From: Myxococcota bacterium
Lineage (GTDB): Bacteria > Myxococcota_A > UBA9160 > PR03
Length of the DNA stretch: 15,873 nt
NCBI GenBank assembly: GCA_030066475.1
Contig: JASJBO010000177.1
Span: forward strand, 1 to 15,873
Direction: 5' to 3'
The position numbers and the translations under genes are program-made. The notes under the pieces were generated by a model, which was not told the DNA's origin, searched no databases, and saw nothing but the letters and a program-made list of their open reading frames with translations. Shown one piece after another: positions 1 through 15,873 of this stretch. How positions within the stretch are numbered: the first letter of the stretch is position 1; each line of letters begins with the position of its first letter.

Positions 1-5
1 CCTAG

Positions 6-86
6 CTGATGGACTTCGTTCGGCTGCGCCTCACTGCGCGCGCCCTCCGGGCGCTTGCGGAGGGCTTCTGCCGCGCAGACTCCTAG
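6..86 (-). repeat. CTAG-bounded 81-bp dispersed repeat, copy 1
   Basis: An 81-bp unit in reverse orientation relative to the pair near 12.9-13.1 kb. It consists of a 77-bp core at 6-82 and a CTAG at 83-86, with another CTAG at 2-5, so the core is flanked by CTAG on both sides. By eye it differs from the 12914 copy at 4 of 81 positions (one in the GGCTKCGCC stretch, three around GCTTGC). The hairpin GCGCCC-TCC-GGGCGC lies at 40-54 and is unchanged. It sits directly upstream of the leader of the glutamate-synthase-like gene. Being non-coding, dispersed and hairpin-bearing, it resembles a REP/MITE-type element; no transposase is present in the window. Confidence 0.85.
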
Positions 87-10013: not shown

Positions 10014-11687
10014 ATGCCCACGCCCGCCTGTCGCTGCCGCCTGCCGATCGCGATCATTGCCGCCTGTCTGCTGGGGGGGAGCGCCGCGCTCGCGCAGTCG
10101 CCGAGCGAAGACCTGCACAGCCTGCGCTGGTTCGTCCACGAGGACCTGCTGACCGCGCAGCGGCCGCTGGCCTTCTACCAGGAGCTCGTCGCGCGCTCGA
10201 CGGCGCAGGCCAACGTCATGCTGCAGGGCGCCACGGGCCCCGCCGACCAGCCGTGCTGTACCGCGCTCGACGACGTCTCGGTGCAGGCGTTCTCCGACGT
10301 GAGCCCCGGCCGCGACCTGCTCGTGATCGACACCTCCGAGGAGCTGGACGACCTCGATGCGATCGGGGGAGCGGGCTCGCGCGCCTTCATCGTGCAGACG
10401 CTCGGCTACTGCTCGGGAGCGCCGGGCGAGAGTCCGATCGGCTGCGCCGACACGCCGGTCTGCAACGCCAACGCCGACGACGACCCCGACCTGGTGCTGG
10501 TGGTGACGATGGACGCCCTGGATCAGTTCGACGCGTTCGCCAGCACCCTGGCCCACGAGCGCGGCCACAACGCCTGCCTGTGCCACACCGACGAGCCGAG
10601 CTGCCCGAACTACGACGGCGGCTTCTCGTGCAGCCTGATGAAGTCCTCCTCGGGCGGCGCCTGCATCAAGAGCGACGAGTGCACCGACTATCGCGAGGCG
10701 CGCACGGGGGGCGACACGGGCGCCGTCTGTGAGTGCTTTGCCAGCGACGAGGTGGTGGCGCCGGACGGCGCGGGCTGCAGCGCCGGGTTGTGCTCGGGCG
10801 GCATCTGCGACGCCGTGGGGAGCGCCGCCTCGACGCAGGTGTTCGTGGCGGGCGGCACCGTGAGACAGCTCGGCGACACGATCGACGATCCGCTGGTGCT
10901 GAGCGGGCGCACCGGCGGCTGGACCGACCGGGGCCGCTTCGGCATGGGCCTCGAGCCGACCGGCATGGCCCACGCGCCGGCGCGCGGGATCACGTTCGGG
11001 GTGGCTCCCACGGGTGGCGCCGACCTGCTGTTCACGGTCGATCCCGACGACGGCTCGGTCACGGTGGTCGGCAGTGTCCTGGACGGCGGCTCGCCGGTCG
11101 CGGGCCTGGTGAACCTGGCGTTCGACCCGGGCGCAACCGATGCGCCCGGCGACGATCGGCTGCTGGCGCTCGGGCCGGAGGACCTCGCCACCCTGCACGC
11201 GATCGATCCCGACTCCGGCAGTGCCGACGCGCTCGGGAGACTCAATCTGGGCGTGGAAGGGGGTGGCGTGGCGTTCCCCGGGCTCGCCTACGATGCCGAC
11301 AACCGGCGGCTGTTCGCGTCGTCGTCGATCGGCCTCGCGGGTGACGCCGGCCTCTTCGAGATCGACTACGCGTGCCCCGGGTCGACATGCGCGACGGGAC
11401 CGGTCGAGGGCATCGATCTGCCGCGCTTCGAGAGCGGACTCGCCTGGTCCGCCGCGAGCGGCGACCTGCTGCTGGTCGGCTACCAGAACGGACCGCGCAC
11501 GCTCTACGACACGATCGACGCCACCACGCTCGAGCCCGGGCTCTCGCTCCAGGTGCAGGGCTTCAGCACCGGCGCGGTCGCCGCGCTGCCCGTGCCCGAG
11601 CCGACCGGCGGCGCGTCGCTGGGAGCGGCCGTCCTCGCGCTGGCCGCGTGCGCGGCCGCAGCGGCCCGGAGGCGTCACACGGCGTAG
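10014..11687 (+). CDS. Secreted Cys-rich metzincin-like protein with VPEP C-terminal sorting signal
   Basis: A 557-residue exported protein. The signal peptide is residues 1-27 (cleavage after ALA). Zinc-protease motif: HERGHNACLCH (181-191) fits HExxHxxxxxH, with the metzincin Gly replaced by Cys188, and CSLMKS (206-211) is placed like a Met-turn. At least 16 cysteines lie between 81 and 265, suggesting disulfides. From about 275 to 520 there are beta-propeller-like units such as LLFTVDPDDGSVTVVG and LHAIDPDSGSADALG. The end has VPEP (527-530), a hydrophobic stretch and a terminal RRR, matching the tripartite PEP-CTERM/exosortase signal, so it is probably cleaved and surface-anchored or released. 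Whether it is an active protease is inferred. The ATG at 10014 is preferred to upstream starts because it precedes the signal peptide directly. Confidence 0.82.
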   Translation: MPTPACRCRLPIAIIAACLLGGSAALAQSPSEDLHSLRWFVHEDLLTAQRPLAFYQELVARSTAQANVMLQGATGPADQPCCTALDDVSVQAFSDVSPGRDLLVIDTSEELDDLDAIGGAGSRAFIVQTLGYCSGAPGESPIGCADTPVCNANADDDPDLVLVVTMDALDQFDAFASTLAHERGHNACLCHTDEPSCPNYDGGFSCSLMKSSSGGACIKSDECTDYREARTGGDTGAVCECFASDEVVAPDGAGCSAGLCSGGICDAVGSAASTQVFVAGGTVRQLGDTIDDPLVLSGRTGGWTDRGRFGMGLEPTGMAHAPARGITFGVAPTGGADLLFTVDPDDGSVTVVGSVLDGGSPVAGLVNLAFDPGATDAPGDDRLLALGPEDLATLHAIDPDSGSADALGRLNLGVEGGGVAFPGLAYDADNRRLFASSSIGLAGDAGLFEIDYACPGSTCATGPVEGIDLPRFESGLAWSAASGDLLLVGYQNGPRTLYDTIDATTLEPGLSLQVQGFSTGAVAALPVPEPTGGASLGAAVLALAACAAAAARRRHTA

Positions 11688-11747: not shown

Positions 11748-12908
11748 ATGTCCGCGCCCGCCCCCGAGGAACGCACCCCCGAGCCCGCGCCGCGCCGACG
11801 CACCCCGCGCTGGCGGCGCCTGCTGCGGGGCCTCGTGGGGGCCGCCGTGGTGACCGTGGCGGGCGCCCTCGCCCTGGTGGCGATCGACCGGCAGGGCGCG
11901 GTGCGCGAGCTGCGCGAGCGCACGGCGATCCGCAACCCGGACGGGATCGAATCGCTCGAGCCGGTCGAGATCCGCGGCAGCCAGCAGTGGGTCCTGATCC
12001 GCGCCGAGCGCCCAGACGCGCCCGTGCTGCTGTTCCTGCACGGCGGGCCGGGCATGCCGCTGCTCCAACGCGCGCGCTACTTCGACTCGCGGCTCGTGCA
12101 GCACTTCGTGGTGGTGCAGTGGGACCAGGCCGGGGCGGGGCTGTCGCGCTGGGCGGGCTACCCGCGCACCGCGCTGCGCGTGGAGCGCTACGTCGAGGAC
12201 ACCCTCGCGCTGGTCGCGTGGCTGCGCGAGCGCTTCGGCGTGGAGCGCATCTTCCTCGCCGGCACCTCGTGGGGGGCGATGCTCGGCAACCTGGTGGTGG
12301 CCCGCGCCCCGGAGTCCTTCCATGCCTGGGTCTCGGGTGCGACCGCGACCGATCTGCGCCGCGACGAAGCAGTCGGCTACGAGTGGCTGCTCGCCGAGGC
12401 GCGCGCCGCCCGTGATGACGTGGCCGTGGCCGAGCTCGAGGCGATCGGCCCGCCTCCGTACCGGCGCCTGCTCGACGTGGGCCGGCAGCGCACCTGGCTG
12501 CGTCGCTACGGGGGCGTGCACCACCAGCCCTTTCCGGGCTACCTGGCCGTCACCTACGGCTGGGCCTCGCCCGAGTACGACCTGCTCGACGTGGCGCTCG
12601 CGCCGCTCGCCGAGCTGTGGTCGGTCAGCGCCACGTACTTCCAGATCGTCGAGGGGGTCGACCTGCTCGCCCAGGTTCCCCGCCTCGAGGTCCCGGTGTG
12701 GTTCGTGCACGGGCGTCACGACATGAACACGCCCGGTGCGGTGGCGCGCGAGTTCTACGAGAAGCTCGAGGCGCCGAAGGGCAAGCACTGGGTCTGGTTC
12801 GAGAGCTCGGCCCACATGCCCCACTTCGAGGAGAACGCCGCCTACCAGCGCCTGCTGATCGAGGAGGTGCTGCCCCTGGCCGGCCCGGCCGCCGCCGCAC
12901 CTCGCTAG
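11748..12908 (+). CDS. Membrane-anchored alpha/beta hydrolase, proline iminopeptidase-like
   Basis: A 386-residue serine hydrolase of the alpha/beta fold. An Arg/Pro-rich N terminus (1-24) precedes a membrane helix at about 27-46, so the catalytic domain is probably periplasmic and tethered to the inner membrane. Motifs: HGGPG (98-102) forming the oxyanion hole, QWDQAGAGLS (124-133), the nucleophile elbow GTSWG with Ser174, Asp325 in GRHDMNTP and His356 in SSAHMPH. HGGPG with the WDQ[RA]G stretch is typical of proline iminopeptidase-like (S33) enzymes; whether the substrate is a peptide or an ester is not determinable. The stop TAG at 12906-12908 lies within CTAG, and a tandem repeat begins six bases later. 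It may be expressed on its own or together with the upstream gene, 60 bp away. Confidence 0.9.
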   Translation: MSAPAPEERTPEPAPRRRTPRWRRLLRGLVGAAVVTVAGALALVAIDRQGAVRELRERTAIRNPDGIESLEPVEIRGSQQWVLIRAERPDAPVLLFLHGGPGMPLLQRARYFDSRLVQHFVVVQWDQAGAGLSRWAGYPRTALRVERYVEDTLALVAWLRERFGVERIFLAGTSWGAMLGNLVVARAPESFHAWVSGATATDLRRDEAVGYEWLLAEARAARDDVAVAELEAIGPPPYRRLLDVGRQRTWLRRYGGVHHQPFPGYLAVTYGWASPEYDLLDVALAPLAELWSVSATYFQIVEGVDLLAQVPRLEVPVWFVHGRHDMNTPGAVAREFYEKLEAPKGKHWVWFESSAHMPHFEENAAYQRLLIEEVLPLAGPAAAAPR

Positions 12909-12913
12909 CTTGG

Positions 12914-12994
12914 CTAGGAGTCTGCGCGGCAGAAGCCCCTTGCAAGCGCCCGGAGGGCGCGCGCAGTGAGGCGAAGCCGAACGAAGTCCATCAG
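12914..12994 (+). repeat. CTAG-bounded 81-bp repeat, copy 2 (tandem unit A)
   Basis: The unit opens with CTAG (12914-12917) followed by a 77-bp core, and the next CTAG at 12995 begins an identical unit. The hairpin GCGCCC-GGA-GGGCGC lies at 12946-12960. It is in the spacer between two convergent genes, so the hairpin could help end transcription from either side, although no T-run follows. It is identical by eye to the next copy at all 81 positions. Confidence 0.95.
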
Positions 12995-13075
12995 CTAGGA
13001 GTCTGCGCGGCAGAAGCCCCTTGCAAGCGCCCGGAGGGCGCGCGCAGTGAGGCGAAGCCGAACGAAGTCCATCAG
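12995..13075 (+). repeat. CTAG-bounded 81-bp repeat, copy 3 (tandem unit B)
   Basis: An exact head-to-tail duplicate of the unit starting at 12914, with a period of 81 bases. It is closed by a third CTAG at 13076-13079, which also supplies the TAG stop of the minus-strand RND exporter (13078-13076). The hairpin lies at 13027-13041. Perfect identity suggests a recent duplication, a second insertion into the boundary CTAG, or an assembly artefact. Confidence 0.95.
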
Positions 13076-15715
13076 CTAGCGAGGCCGGAACACGCGCACC
13101 AGCGCGGGGAGCAGGATCAGGTTCGACACCAGGACGAGGGCGATGCCGAGGGCGAGCAGGCGGCCCAGGCTCGCCATGCCGCTGTGGGTGGCGAAGCCGA
13201 GCGTCCCGAAGCTCGCCACGGTGGTGAGGGCGCTGAACCAGACGGCCCGGGCGGTGCTGGTGGCGAGCAGGTTGCCCGACTCGGGCGCCTCGCGGCGCTG
13301 CCGGTGCACCATGTGGACGCCGCTGTCGACGCCCATGCCGAGCAGCAGCGGGATCACGATCACGTTGGCGAAGTTGAGCGGGATGCCGAGCACCGTGGCG
13401 GCGGCCGCGGTCAGCAGCGCGGCGAAGCCGAGCGGGAGGGCGACCAGGGCGGCGTCGGCCGCGCTGCGCCAGAGCAGGAGCAGCAGCAGGCTGATGCCGA
13501 CCGCCGCGAGCGCGAGCGCCCGCTGCAGCGAGCGCACCACCGCCCGGCCCGACTCCAGGATGATGCTGCCTTCCCCGAACGCGTCGGGCGCAATCCGGCG
13601 GATCTCGGCGACGTAGGCGGCGAGCGCGCGGTTGTCGCTCAGGTCGTCGCGCGGGAACACCTCGACGCGGGCGCGGCCGTCGCCGGCCACGTAGTACTCG
13701 ACCAGGTCGGCGGGCAGGTCGGAGCGGCCCACCGGTCCGGTCGCGAGCGCCCGACGCAGCTGGCGGAGCTGGCTCGGAAGCGACCCGATCAGGCTGACCT
13801 CGAGGCGCGCGAGCCCGGTGTCGGCTGCCTTCGGGTGCCCCCAGCGCTCGAGCAGCACGGCGAGGTCGCGCCGCAGGCGCGCCGCGGACCCGGCCAGCGC
13901 CGGCGCCACGTCGGCTCGCTCGAGCGCCGCGAGCCCCTCGGCGAGCGCCGCCATGGCGGCCAGCTGCGCGTCCCGGTCGGGAGGCGTGCCCGGCTCCGGC
14001 ATCTCCAGCACCGGCCCCAGCAGGAGCCCCGCGTCCGCGAGCACCGCGAGCCGCGCCGCCTGGTCCTCCGGGACGTAGCTCGACAGGGTGACGGCCTGGT
14101 CGACCGCGGGCAGCTCGCGCAGGCGCTCGGCAATCGCGTCCGCCTCGCCCAGGCTCGGCGCGACCACGTTCAGGTTCCACGGGAACGCGGTGCCCTCGGC
14201 CAGCATCTCGTTGAACACCTGGACCGAGTCCGTGCTGGCATCGCGCACGCGCAGGGGATTGAGGTCGAACTCGAGGCGCGCGGCGAGCCAGGCGGCGGCC
14301 GCCGCCACCAGCACGGCGCCCAGCACGACCGCGCGCGCATGCCGCACCGCGAAGCCGAGCCAGCCCTCCGCCTGCCAGAGCGGCACGCCGGCGCTGCGCC
14401 GGGCCCTGCCGTTCGCGCCGAGCGCCAGCAGCGCGGGGAGCAGGGTCAGGTTCACGAACAGCGTGATGAACATGCCGGTGCCCGCGATCAGGCCCAGCTC
14501 GGCCACGCCGCGGTACTCGGTCGGGACGAAGGCGTAGAACCCGATCGCGGTGCTGACGGCGCAGATCGTGAGCGAGCCGCCCACGCTGCGGGCCGCGGCC
14601 TGCATGGCAGCACCCCGCGGCGCGTGGCGCGACATCTCGTCGAAGCGGATGCAGACGTGGATCGCGAAGTCGATCGAGAGGCCGATGAAGAGCACCCCGA
14701 ACGTGACCGAGACCAGGTTCAGCTGGCCGACCGCGAGGGCGGCGAAGCCCGCCGTCCAGGTGAGACCGACCAGCAGCGTGGCGAGTGCGGCGCCGATCAT
14801 CGCCCCCGAGCGCAGCCCGACGAGCAGCGCGAGCGACACCAGCAGGAAGGACGCCGCGCCGGCCAGGGCGGACTGGACGCCGACCAGGTCCGCCTCCTCG
14901 TACGAGAGCGGGAAGATCCCCGTGAGCCGCACGCGGACGCCCGCGGGCTCGGCCAGGCCGAGGGCCGCCACGGCTTCCTGGATCCCCCGGATGGTGTCTT
15001 CGGCGGGGCGCACGCGCGAGAAGTCGATGCGCGGCTGCACGATCACGAAGCGGCGCCGATCGCTCGGCGTCGGCGTGTGGCCCAGGATCACGTCGGACCA
15101 GGCCAGCCGGTAGGGGCGCCCGGCGAGCACCGCCGCGGTCGCCGCGCTGACCCGCTCGAGCGCGTCGCTCAGGTCCACCTGCGACAGCTCGCCCGCGGCG
15201 ACCGCCTCGCTTGCCCGGCGCAGCAGGTCGAAGAAGCCGCGCAGGCTCGGGTCGCGCGACAGCGCCGCCAGGTAGGGCTGCACGCGCACCAGGCGATCCA
15301 CCCACTCCTCGAGCTCGTCGGCGCTCAGGTACAGCAGACCGTGCGCCTCGAAGAAGGGCCCGCCGCCCGGCACGAAGACGCGCGGGAAGCGCGCCGGGTC
15401 CTCGCGGAGCCGGGCGGCCAGGGCGGCGGCTCCGTCCACGGCGGCATCCACGGTCTCGCCGTCGAGCACCACGACGATCGGGTCCGCGAGCAGCGGGTAG
15501 GCTCCGTAGACGTCGATGCGCTGCTGGAAGTAGGGGACGTCTTCCGAGAACATCGCGTTCTCGTCGGCGTTCAGGCCCAGGCGTCCCGGGAGCAGCGCGA
15601 GCACGACCAGCGTGATGCCGGCACAGGCCGCGACGACGGCGCGGGCGCGCGCCTGCACCGCGCCCACCCAGCGGGCCGCGGCCTGCCCCAGCGCCTCGTC
15701 GAGCGCGCCCGCCAA
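13076..15715 (-). CDS. hpnN: HpnN-like RND/MMPL-family lipid exporter
   Basis: An 879-residue inner-membrane RND transporter of the MMPL/HpnN subgroup, close to the roughly 880 residues usual for HpnN. Using the TTG start: TM1 at about 26-45, a large periplasmic domain beginning LGLNADENAMFSEDVPYFQQ, and a first helix bundle from about 275-430 with GLSIDFAIHV (345-354) and PTEYRGVAELGLIAGTGMF (398-416). A second periplasmic domain follows, then a second bundle with GMGVDSGVHMVHR near the end. The two transmembrane Asp residues in those motifs are candidates for proton relay. HpnN moves hopanoids to the outer membrane, but no hopanoid gene is in this window, so the cargo is inferred. TTG at 15715 has GGAG 7 bases upstream; the in-frame GTG at 15742 lies in a 14-bp tandem repeat and has no such site. 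Confidence 0.88.
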   Translation of the reverse strand: MAGALDEALGQAAARWVGAVQARARAVVAACAGITLVVLALLPGRLGLNADENAMFSEDVPYFQQRIDVYGAYPLLADPIVVVLDGETVDAAVDGAAALAARLREDPARFPRVFVPGGGPFFEAHGLLYLSADELEEWVDRLVRVQPYLAALSRDPSLRGFFDLLRRASEAVAAGELSQVDLSDALERVSAATAAVLAGRPYRLAWSDVILGHTPTPSDRRRFVIVQPRIDFSRVRPAEDTIRGIQEAVAALGLAEPAGVRVRLTGIFPLSYEEADLVGVQSALAGAASFLLVSLALLVGLRSGAMIGAALATLLVGLTWTAGFAALAVGQLNLVSVTFGVLFIGLSIDFAIHVCIRFDEMSRHAPRGAAMQAAARSVGGSLTICAVSTAIGFYAFVPTEYRGVAELGLIAGTGMFITLFVNLTLLPALLALGANGRARRSAGVPLWQAEGWLGFAVRHARAVVLGAVLVAAAAAWLAARLEFDLNPLRVRDASTDSVQVFNEMLAEGTAFPWNLNVVAPSLGEADAIAERLRELPAVDQAVTLSSYVPEDQAARLAVLADAGLLLGPVLEMPEPGTPPDRDAQLAAMAALAEGLAALERADVAPALAGSAARLRRDLAVLLERWGHPKAADTGLARLEVSLIGSLPSQLRQLRRALATGPVGRSDLPADLVEYYVAGDGRARVEVFPRDDLSDNRALAAYVAEIRRIAPDAFGEGSIILESGRAVVRSLQRALALAAVGISLLLLLLWRSAADAALVALPLGFAALLTAAAATVLGIPLNFANVIVIPLLLGMGVDSGVHMVHRQRREAPESGNLLATSTARAVWFSALTTVASFGTLGFATHSGMASLGRLLALGIALVLVSNLILLPALVRVFRPR

Positions 15716-15720
15716 TCGAG

Positions 15721-15729
15721 CTCTCCCCC
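15721..15729 (-). promoter_or_regulatory. Shine-Dalgarno of the RND exporter gene
   Basis: Minus-strand GGGGGAGAG, with GGAG 7 bases before TTG at 15715. It favours the TTG start over the GTG at 15742. Confidence 0.55.
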
Positions 15730-15730
15730 A

Positions 15731-15758
15731 ACCCGTCCGCACCGACCCGTCCGCACCG
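15731..15758. repeat. Exact 14-bp tandem duplication in the exporter leader
   Basis: ACCCGTCCGCACCG occurs twice without a gap (15731-15744 and 15745-15758). It lies between the ribosome binding site and the putative -10 of the exporter. It could arise by slippage, or be a binding site pair; nothing in the sequence decides this. Confidence 0.85.
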
Positions 15759-15790: not shown

Positions 15791-15814
15791 GCCGACACCG
15801 GTCTGCTACCCATG

Positions 15815-15873
15815 CCGACGGACTTCTTCGGCTTCGCCTCACGGCGCGCGCCCGCCGGGCGCGTGCAAGGGGC
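15815..15873 (-). repeat. Diverged, window-truncated copy 4 of the 81-bp repeat
   Basis: The last 59 bases align with the reverse complement of the 81-bp unit with about five mismatches and one single-base gap. The stem GCGCCC/GGGCGC is kept while the loop changes from TCC to GCC. The position of the bounding CTAG reads CATG here (15811-15814). The copy continues past the end of the window. Confidence 0.75.

Follow-up and report, generated by a model that had tools for sequence, protein, structure and literature searches.

The ends of IS200/IS605 elements and the attC sites of integrons are folded single strands in which conserved unpaired bases lie beside variable hairpins, and 'D. alkenivorans', one of the organisms with repeats of the kind discussed next, is a sulfate reducer. 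REP elements, carrying GTAG or CGTC tags, are in the part of PMC3733652 available to us short palindromic sequences of high copy number that prefer convergent gaps and gene 3' ends, occur in tandem groups, lie also within genes (including DnaE2) and supply TAG stop codons from their edges. That same part records a GTAG family in 'D. alkenivorans', identifies the Rickettsia palindromic elements (RPE) RPE-4 and RPE-6 as CGTC repeats, and has no word starting with delta, Myxococ, Anaeromyxobacter or Desulf. RPE in general are palindromic inserts found in-frame within protein genes. The double-hairpin or repetitive hairpin-forming elements of mitochondria, according to the accessible part of PMC2800124, are adjacent hairpins, proposed to be mobile, in both intergenic and intragenic positions, with flanking duplications noted as absent for those of Allomyces.

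Here we analyzed a stretch of 15 873 nucleotides from a Myxococcota bacterium (hereafter the window), and found that its tandem 81-bp repeat probably belongs to a family of two-hairpin repeats in myxobacteria-related genomes. As far as the available parts of these papers allow comparison, this double-hairpin family shares with REP elements all of the properties listed above, except that it lacks the GTAG or CGTC tag and any association with Y1 transposases, and that it has two hairpins in fixed order, three conserved unpaired anchors and wholesale replacement of hairpins. It resembles RPE as a palindromic in-frame insert and the mitochondrial elements in its adjacent hairpins, proposed mobility, lack of flanking duplications and genomic placement; RPE, however, belong to another phylum and the mitochondrial elements to organelles of fungi and sponges, both likenesses being at the level of description. 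Conserved unpaired bases beside variable hairpins are also reminiscent of IS200/IS605 ends and attC sites but, unlike IS200/IS605, the family could not be tied to a transposase in a Y1 co-occurrence analysis. No published description of it was found in the literature searched.

Table 1. Repeat copies, their parts and adjoining genes in the window
Feature	Position	Strand	Remarks
Alpha/beta hydrolase gene	11748..12908	+	Ends 5 bp upstream of the array; stop TAG within a CTAG
Inverted repeat flanking the array	12900..12910 (left arm, CCTCGCTAGCT); 13074-13084 (right arm)	.	11 bp, perfect; contains the stop codons of both adjoining genes
81-bp tandem	12914-13079		CTAG at 12914, 12995 and 13076
Repeat unit A	12914..12994	+	81 bp; CTAG at start
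Repeat unit B	12995..13075	+	Identical to unit A; CTAG at start; closing CTAG 13076-13079
Family core, unit A	12941..12990	+	TGCAA-hairpin 1-GCGCAG-hairpin 2-CGAAGTCCA; R1 match of 79 bits, the sequence being among the 9 R1 training rows; matched to relatives independently by BLASTN
Family core, unit B	13022..13071	+	R1 match
Hairpin 1, core A	12946..12960	+	GCGCCC-GGA-GGGCGC; in unit B 13027-13041; arm-swap test at family level, coordinates read off the sequence
Hairpin 2, core A	12966..12982	+	GTGAGGC-GAA-GCCGAAC; two internal GA mismatches; in unit B 13047-13063; arm-swap test at family level, coordinates read off the sequence
MMPL (HpnN-like) transporter gene	13076..15742	-	Convergent; stop codon within the last CTAG
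Third copy	2..86	-	CTAG at both ends (2-5, 83-86); core 10-59
Fourth copy, diverged	15814..15873	-	Truncated at the window end; core 15819-15867, 51.8 bits

The original prediction had described two identical units, whose three junctions all read CTAG, and an isolated copy edged by CTAG on both sides, and the sequence confirmed each of these observations. The isolated third copy lies on the strand opposite to the tandem and is 95% complementary to the 81-bp unit. The fourth copy reads CGGCATGG at the place where the others have CAGCTAGG, that is CATG against CTAG, and thus lacks CTAG at its single visible edge. Additional CTAGs adjoin the units at 89-92 and 12905-12908. A possible second module, GGAGTCTGCGCGGCAGAAG, was rejected when a search of 16 genomes allowing two mismatches gave one match as compared with three for a reversed-pattern control; a 25-aa ORF read off the unit and ending at CTAG was likewise discarded, the fourth copy lacking one base inside it. 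Neither exact-pattern scans of genome contigs and viral contigs, nor blastn searches of plasmid and phage sequences (E<=1e-5), gave any match to the repeat. A Pfam scan of the ten window ORFs revealed no transposase, as had been noted, and left one ORF without any match. At gathering threshold no Rfam covariance model matched the window; at E<=5 the region 12800-13200 gave a single 12.4-bit match outside the repeat, and among ten related loci the matches at E<=1 were two tRNAs and two sub-threshold ones to mir-642.

CTAG had been proposed as the target of a mini-element that inserts at this tetranucleotide and duplicates it, the second copy having entered the duplicated CTAG. With all five edges of three copies being CTAG in a window where it is otherwise scarce (10 occurrences, where 200 dinucleotide shuffles average 20.6), the five at the unit edges are not due to chance, though as homologous copies of one unit they represent only two independent sites. 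In six other related genomes, with flanks searched from 40 nt upstream to 20 nt downstream of the core, CTAG on one side was seen for 10 of 120 arrays with full flanks, as compared with about three expected from a density of 0.42 per kb, but on both sides for none of them. Tandem linkers in other genomes contained CTAG once (L185) among the 35 fully read, out of 40. Together with the CATG of the fourth copy, which like the relatives lacks the direct CTAG duplication at both ends that would mark a MITE, these results make a CTAG-targeting element very improbable. Pairing of the CTAG ends as a closing stem was also rejected, as they were unpaired in DNA folds of both strands of unit A. Most likely, CTAG is part either of a local inverted repeat at the two gene ends or of the unit of this organism, and not a target-site duplication.

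The 11-bp inverted repeat around the array was compared with 65 arrays from five related genomes (G004, G012, G013, G016 and G017), none of which scored higher and one of which (L191 in G012) scored equally. In G014, 30 of 49 arrays had an outer inverted repeat of at least 10 bp, versus 34 of 196 when flanks were swapped between arrays. As a general feature it was rejected, since only one of 64 arrays in G004, G012, G013 and G016 reached 10 bp and the means there equalled the swapped means. Among the 80 transporter loci compared for an empty site of the window array, none had a hydrolase relative at E<=1e-5.

BLASTN with the 81-bp unit gave matches at E<=0.1 in 9 of 16 related genomes, the best at 2.8e-12. 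In eight of the nine the best match lay within the core region, and the sole match of the ninth (G007) lay outside it. A model of the core, R1, trained on 9 rows that include the unit A core of the window, gave matches at E<=0.01 in 31 of 50 genomes, some of these being single weak ones; with 120 candidates scored per genome, the numbers were at least 122 in G014, at least 60 in G012, at least 59 in G016 and at least 47 in G004. In one phylum, strong R1 matches (best E<=1e-10) were found in 17 of 188 genomes, or 14 of 185 when the three training genomes were removed; in two other phyla, none of 200 and none of 118 genomes had one, the best values there being 7.7e-7 and 1.5e-7.

The relatives share a core of about 50 nt, GCAA-[hairpin 1]-GCGCAG-[hairpin 2]-CGAAGTYCA, in which the short unpaired anchors are retained while the hairpins vary with matched changes in both arms. 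The unit had been called a hairpin, and this part of the prediction stood through the paired changes among relatives, not through the folding energy of single copies, which is ordinary in the window (with DNA parameters, the two strands of the tandem unit gave z values of -0.43 and -0.71, the copy at 2-86 gave -1.74 and the partial copy -1.80). When arms were swapped between the 142 of 169 copies that could be parsed, an arm fitted its own partner better, the permutation count being 0 of 2000 for hairpin 1 with arms of length 4-6 and for hairpin 2 with arms of length 5 and 7; hairpin 2 at arm length 2 gave a weak result (73/2000). In the outer stem of the G014 form, two-sided changes outnumbered one-sided ones by 116 to 11 over 30 rows. 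Loops of the type C-GNA-G made up 28 of 49 distinct triloops in hairpin 1 and 38 of 56 in hairpin 2, TNC loops numbering 3 and 4; of 666 background triloop hairpins, 14 had the C-GNA-G type. This excess points to the strand that folds. The anchors CAAG, CGCAG and CGRAG were present in 143, 151 and 154 of 165 copies, respectively, a conservation that is overstated because the copies outside the window were chosen with R1.

With regard to gene context, 50 of 127 arrays lay in convergent gaps and 4 in divergent gaps, so that gene 3' ends are favoured, and outside G012 the orientation was sense in 33 of 39 cases. Both observations would fit a non-mobile transcription terminator or mRNA 3'-end structure, gained by many genes through convergence or slow divergence. 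The sense bias fails in G012, with 9 sense versus 13 antisense. In G014, a RuvX-like gene contains an in-frame insert at which all 13 spanning relatives have a gap of 14-19 residues, and other genes also hold copies in-frame, as seen from their reading frames, with the orthologue comparison made for the RuvX-like gene. For the crotonase-like gene of G004, the family of G004 consists of G004 alone. Insertion into coding sequence, the conserved unpaired anchors and the long similar flanks common to groups of copies all argue against the terminator explanation, which we consider unlikely. An exact insertion junction or target could not be defined from the copies compared.

The many palindromic copies near gene 3' ends in related genomes are REP-like in the wide sense, the window itself having four copies with one array between convergent genes, and the in-frame copy missing in orthologues is RPE-like for the one gene tested. 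Together with the insert missing from relatives, this supports the predicted small, non-autonomous REP- or MITE-like repeat. What we observed directly is the homology of the copies, their number, the paired changes of the two hairpins, the gene context, copies lying in-frame (compared for one gene with relatives lacking the insert) and head-to-tail arrays in related genomes. We find it likely that the 81-bp unit represents a form, specific to its lineage and duplicated in tandem, of an interspersed double-hairpin family of about 50 nt in Myxococcota-type genomes, spreading in the manner of REP and RPE.

As in gammaproteobacteria, the mover could be a REP-associated transposase of the Y1 type (RAYT). 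REP elements, as described in PMC3733652, are likewise short and palindromic, prefer 3' ends, enter genes and supply stop codons at their edges, and Y1_Tnp genes are indeed present in G012 and G013. The core ends, GCAA and CGAAGTYCA, nevertheless carry no unpaired GTAG or CGTC tag, and no Y1_Tnp was found in G004, a single-contig chromosome, in the draft G014, or in G016 and G002. Y1_Tnp occurred in 8 of 17 strong-positive genomes and in 83 of the 171 remaining ones (Fisher p 1.0), so that the earlier suggestion of a tie to REP-associated tyrosine transposases found no backing in this co-occurrence test, and we regard a RAYT-moved element as highly unlikely. Reverse transcriptase (RVT_1) showed no association either (8/17 versus 90/171). 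Since neither enzyme co-occurs with the repeat, the mover might be neither of them, and the family could, tentatively, form a class of its own of mobile DNA with two hairpins, in which three short unpaired anchors are recognised and hairpins are rebuilt by arm-to-arm copying.

Taking the double-hairpin family to be an interspersed repeat, we propose that a non-coding, non-autonomous unit would spread chiefly to gene 3' ends and to tolerant intragenic spots, and would duplicate head to tail. The strand reading GCAA...GAAGTYCA may be what folds and serves as substrate, probably in the form of single-stranded DNA at forks or of mRNA 3' ends, with an enzyme supplied in trans that would recognise the anchors instead of the stems.

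The locus adds a family of small repeats that can be defined and counted and that has no strong match in either of two control phyla; it alters the ends of genes as well as the sequences of proteins in a large and mostly uncultured group. The family is also a natural record of how the arms of hairpins stay alike and, if its mover is found, it may represent a new route for the movement of non-coding DNA.

The arrangement CTAG-77-CTAG-77-CTAG, which the original prediction had read as a small mobile element inserting at CTAG and duplicating that target, was found to be exact to the base, with both 81-bp units identical and CTAG present at both ends of the inverted copy. A fourth copy, new to the first reading and truncated by the window end, has CATG at its trailing edge where the other copies have CTAG. 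Repeat copies occupy both ends of the window, as would be expected if the assembly broke at repeats. The tandem array fills a convergent gap between two genes that both use TAG as stop, each within a CTAG, and both of these stop codons fall within a perfect inverted repeat of 11 bp (CCTCGCTAGCT/AGCTAGCGAGG).

Coordinates of the repeat copies and associated genes
Feature	Position	Strand	Remark
CTAG-bounded tandem array	12914-13079		
Tandem unit A	12914-12994		
Tandem unit B	12995-13075		
Inverted copy	2-86	-	window end, repeat from 1
Fourth copy	15814-15873	-	core match 15819-15867
Alpha/beta hydrolase gene	end 12908		convergent
MMPL transporter gene	end 13076		convergent
Protein without Pfam match	10014-11687		C terminus VPEP..., hydrophobic stretch, RRR; presumably resembling a PEP-CTERM sorting signal
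RuvX-like gene (presumed), G014	L144:2458-2952		one in-frame copy
CinA-like gene (presumed), G014	L144:3728-5173		three in-frame copies; 0.8 kb from the preceding gene

The best transporter match among the proteins found had 59% identity, and thus no close relative of this organism was found. The transporter search gave 80 related loci, almost all in metagenome-assembled genomes named as Deltaproteobacteria, Myxococcota, Gammaproteobacteria, Rhodospirillales and others. With the window unit as BLASTN query, 9 of 16 transporter-locus genomes matched at an E-value cutoff of 0.1. The strongest match had an E-value of 2.8e-12, and most matches fell inside positions 28-77 of the unit; the sole match in genome G007, outside this segment, is probably due to chance. 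A covariance model of the core, R1, was trained on nine copies, of which two came from the window and seven from genomes G002, G004, G012 and G014. With 120 candidates per genome scored, it found matches at E<=0.01 in 31 of 50 genomes, several of these genomes having one weak match each; matches under this scoring numbered at least 122 in G014, 60 in G012, 59 in G016 and 47 in G004. Within the phylum of G004, called Myxococcota because G006 and G012, recorded as such, belong to it, 43 of 188 genomes matched at E<=1e-4 and 17 had a best E<=1e-10 (31 candidates scored in each), the latter becoming 14 of 185 when training genomes G002, G004 and G012 were removed. Among genomes sampled from two other phyla, 14 of 200 and 2 of 118, respectively, reached E<=1e-4, and no match there fell below 1.5e-7. 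The family had no match in Rfam, and no description of it was found in the papers searched.

The copies follow the layout GCAA-hp1-GCGCAG-hp2-CGAAGTYCA, where hp1 and hp2 are hairpins. Among 165 copies outside the window, found using R1 and therefore biased upward in these counts, the anchors CAAG, CGCAG and CGRAG were seen in 143, 151 and 154, respectively. The stems were highly variable: counting per genome, the 142 parsed copies held 71 different forms of hp1 and 66 of hp2. Pairing of distinct 6-nt hp1 arms was 5.40 natively vs 3.09 when swapped between copies, and that of 7-nt hp2 arms 5.14 vs 3.76, with 0 of 2000 permutations reaching the native value in either case; with 2-nt hp2 arms, 73 of 2000 did. 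The commonest hp2 forms, GCGAGCC/GGCGAGC (45 copies) and GTGAGCC/GGCGAAC (40 copies; mixed, 3), differ by a C-G to T-A exchange. The hp2 interior has two mismatched GA steps of the type called tandem sheared G-A pairs, and these are Watson-Crick paired in some copies. C-GNA-G made up 28 of 49 distinct hp1 triloops and 38 of 56 for hp2, where the script mis-centred some loops, vs 14 of 666 background triloop hairpins with stems of at least 6 bp. Such loops are very stable in DNA, and their excess hence hints at a DNA fold, short of proof. A single window copy did not fold clearly better than shuffled sequences. At three loci of G012 (L183, L187, L189), neighbouring copies combine different hp1 and hp2 modules, as though the anchors stayed in place and the hairpins were exchanged.

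Head-to-tail duplication is habitual in the family, as seen from 41 adjacent same-strand pairs (the window's included; spacing 41 to 129), 11 of which have cores identical except for the first base. CTAG occurred in 1 of 35 fully read tandem linkers, of 40 from other genomes. Among 120 arrays with full flanks in six other genomes (four further arrays had flanks too short), none had CTAG on both sides and 10 had it on one side. These counts and the CATG of the fourth copy speak against reading CTAG as a target-site duplication; the window's organism may have a CTAG preference of its own. The CTAG-bounded tandem unit stands as an observation and the repeat is real, but the CTAG insertion mechanism falls.

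Nor did the suggested link to REP-associated tyrosine transposases find support. Y1_Tnp was present in 91 of 188 genomes, among them 8 of the 17 strong R1 positives (p 1.0 for these against the remaining 171), and RVT_1 in 98 of 188, again including 8 of the 17 (p 0.80), showing no association across the phylum. The single-contig chromosome of G004, with 47 R1 matches, had neither domain at E<=0.001.

In G014 (L140-L179), a larger element encloses many of the copies; its outer stem, roughly 21 bp long, differs in sequence from copy to copy. Over 30 rows, which had been retained for good pairing, this stem paired at 0.983 vs 0.704 with right arms permuted; 116 base pairs were changed on both sides relative to consensus, with 11 one-sided changes (6 G-T, 5 mismatched). 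So few intermediates suggest that one arm was copied from the other in a single step, as occurs in quasipalindrome correction, rather than two separate mutations per pair.

With regards to genes, as called by a custom script, the 127 arrays (three in the window) fell as follows: 50 in convergent and 4 in divergent gaps, 26 downstream sense and 18 antisense, 12 at edges and, within genes, 16 in sense and 1 in antisense. Sense prevailed over antisense (42 of 61, p 0.004), and did so in 33 of 39 without G012, which itself had 9 sense vs 13 antisense. The sense bias inside genes may reflect selection on the peptide. Several genes with copies within the reading frame were seen, in G014, G004 and G016 among others, with the caveats that several copies lie near uncertain gene starts, that the copy at L174:872 is a weak match (20.9 bits) and that the gene at L208 contains Ns. 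We presume these genes to resemble CinA, crotonase (G014, G004), DnaE2 (G014, G016), a GspE-type ATPase and others. By eye, the inserts lie at a similar place in the presumed DnaE2-like genes of L174 (G014) and L218 (G016), and likewise in the presumed crotonase-like genes of L150 (G014) and L204 (G004).

In the presumed RuvX-like gene of G014, a core encodes an insert in the protein. Fourteen relatives were aligned, one only upstream of the site; all 13 that span it lack the insert, with a gap of 14-19 residues (17 residues, or 51 nt, in the closest, G235). As with the copies in the presumed DnaE2-like genes, REPs are reported inside DnaE2 (PMC3733652). The present repeat is a REP/RPE-like double-hairpin family, resembling those repeats in its position near gene 3' ends and its in-frame occurrence inside genes, and the insert missing from all 13 relatives is our evidence, from one gene, on its mobility.
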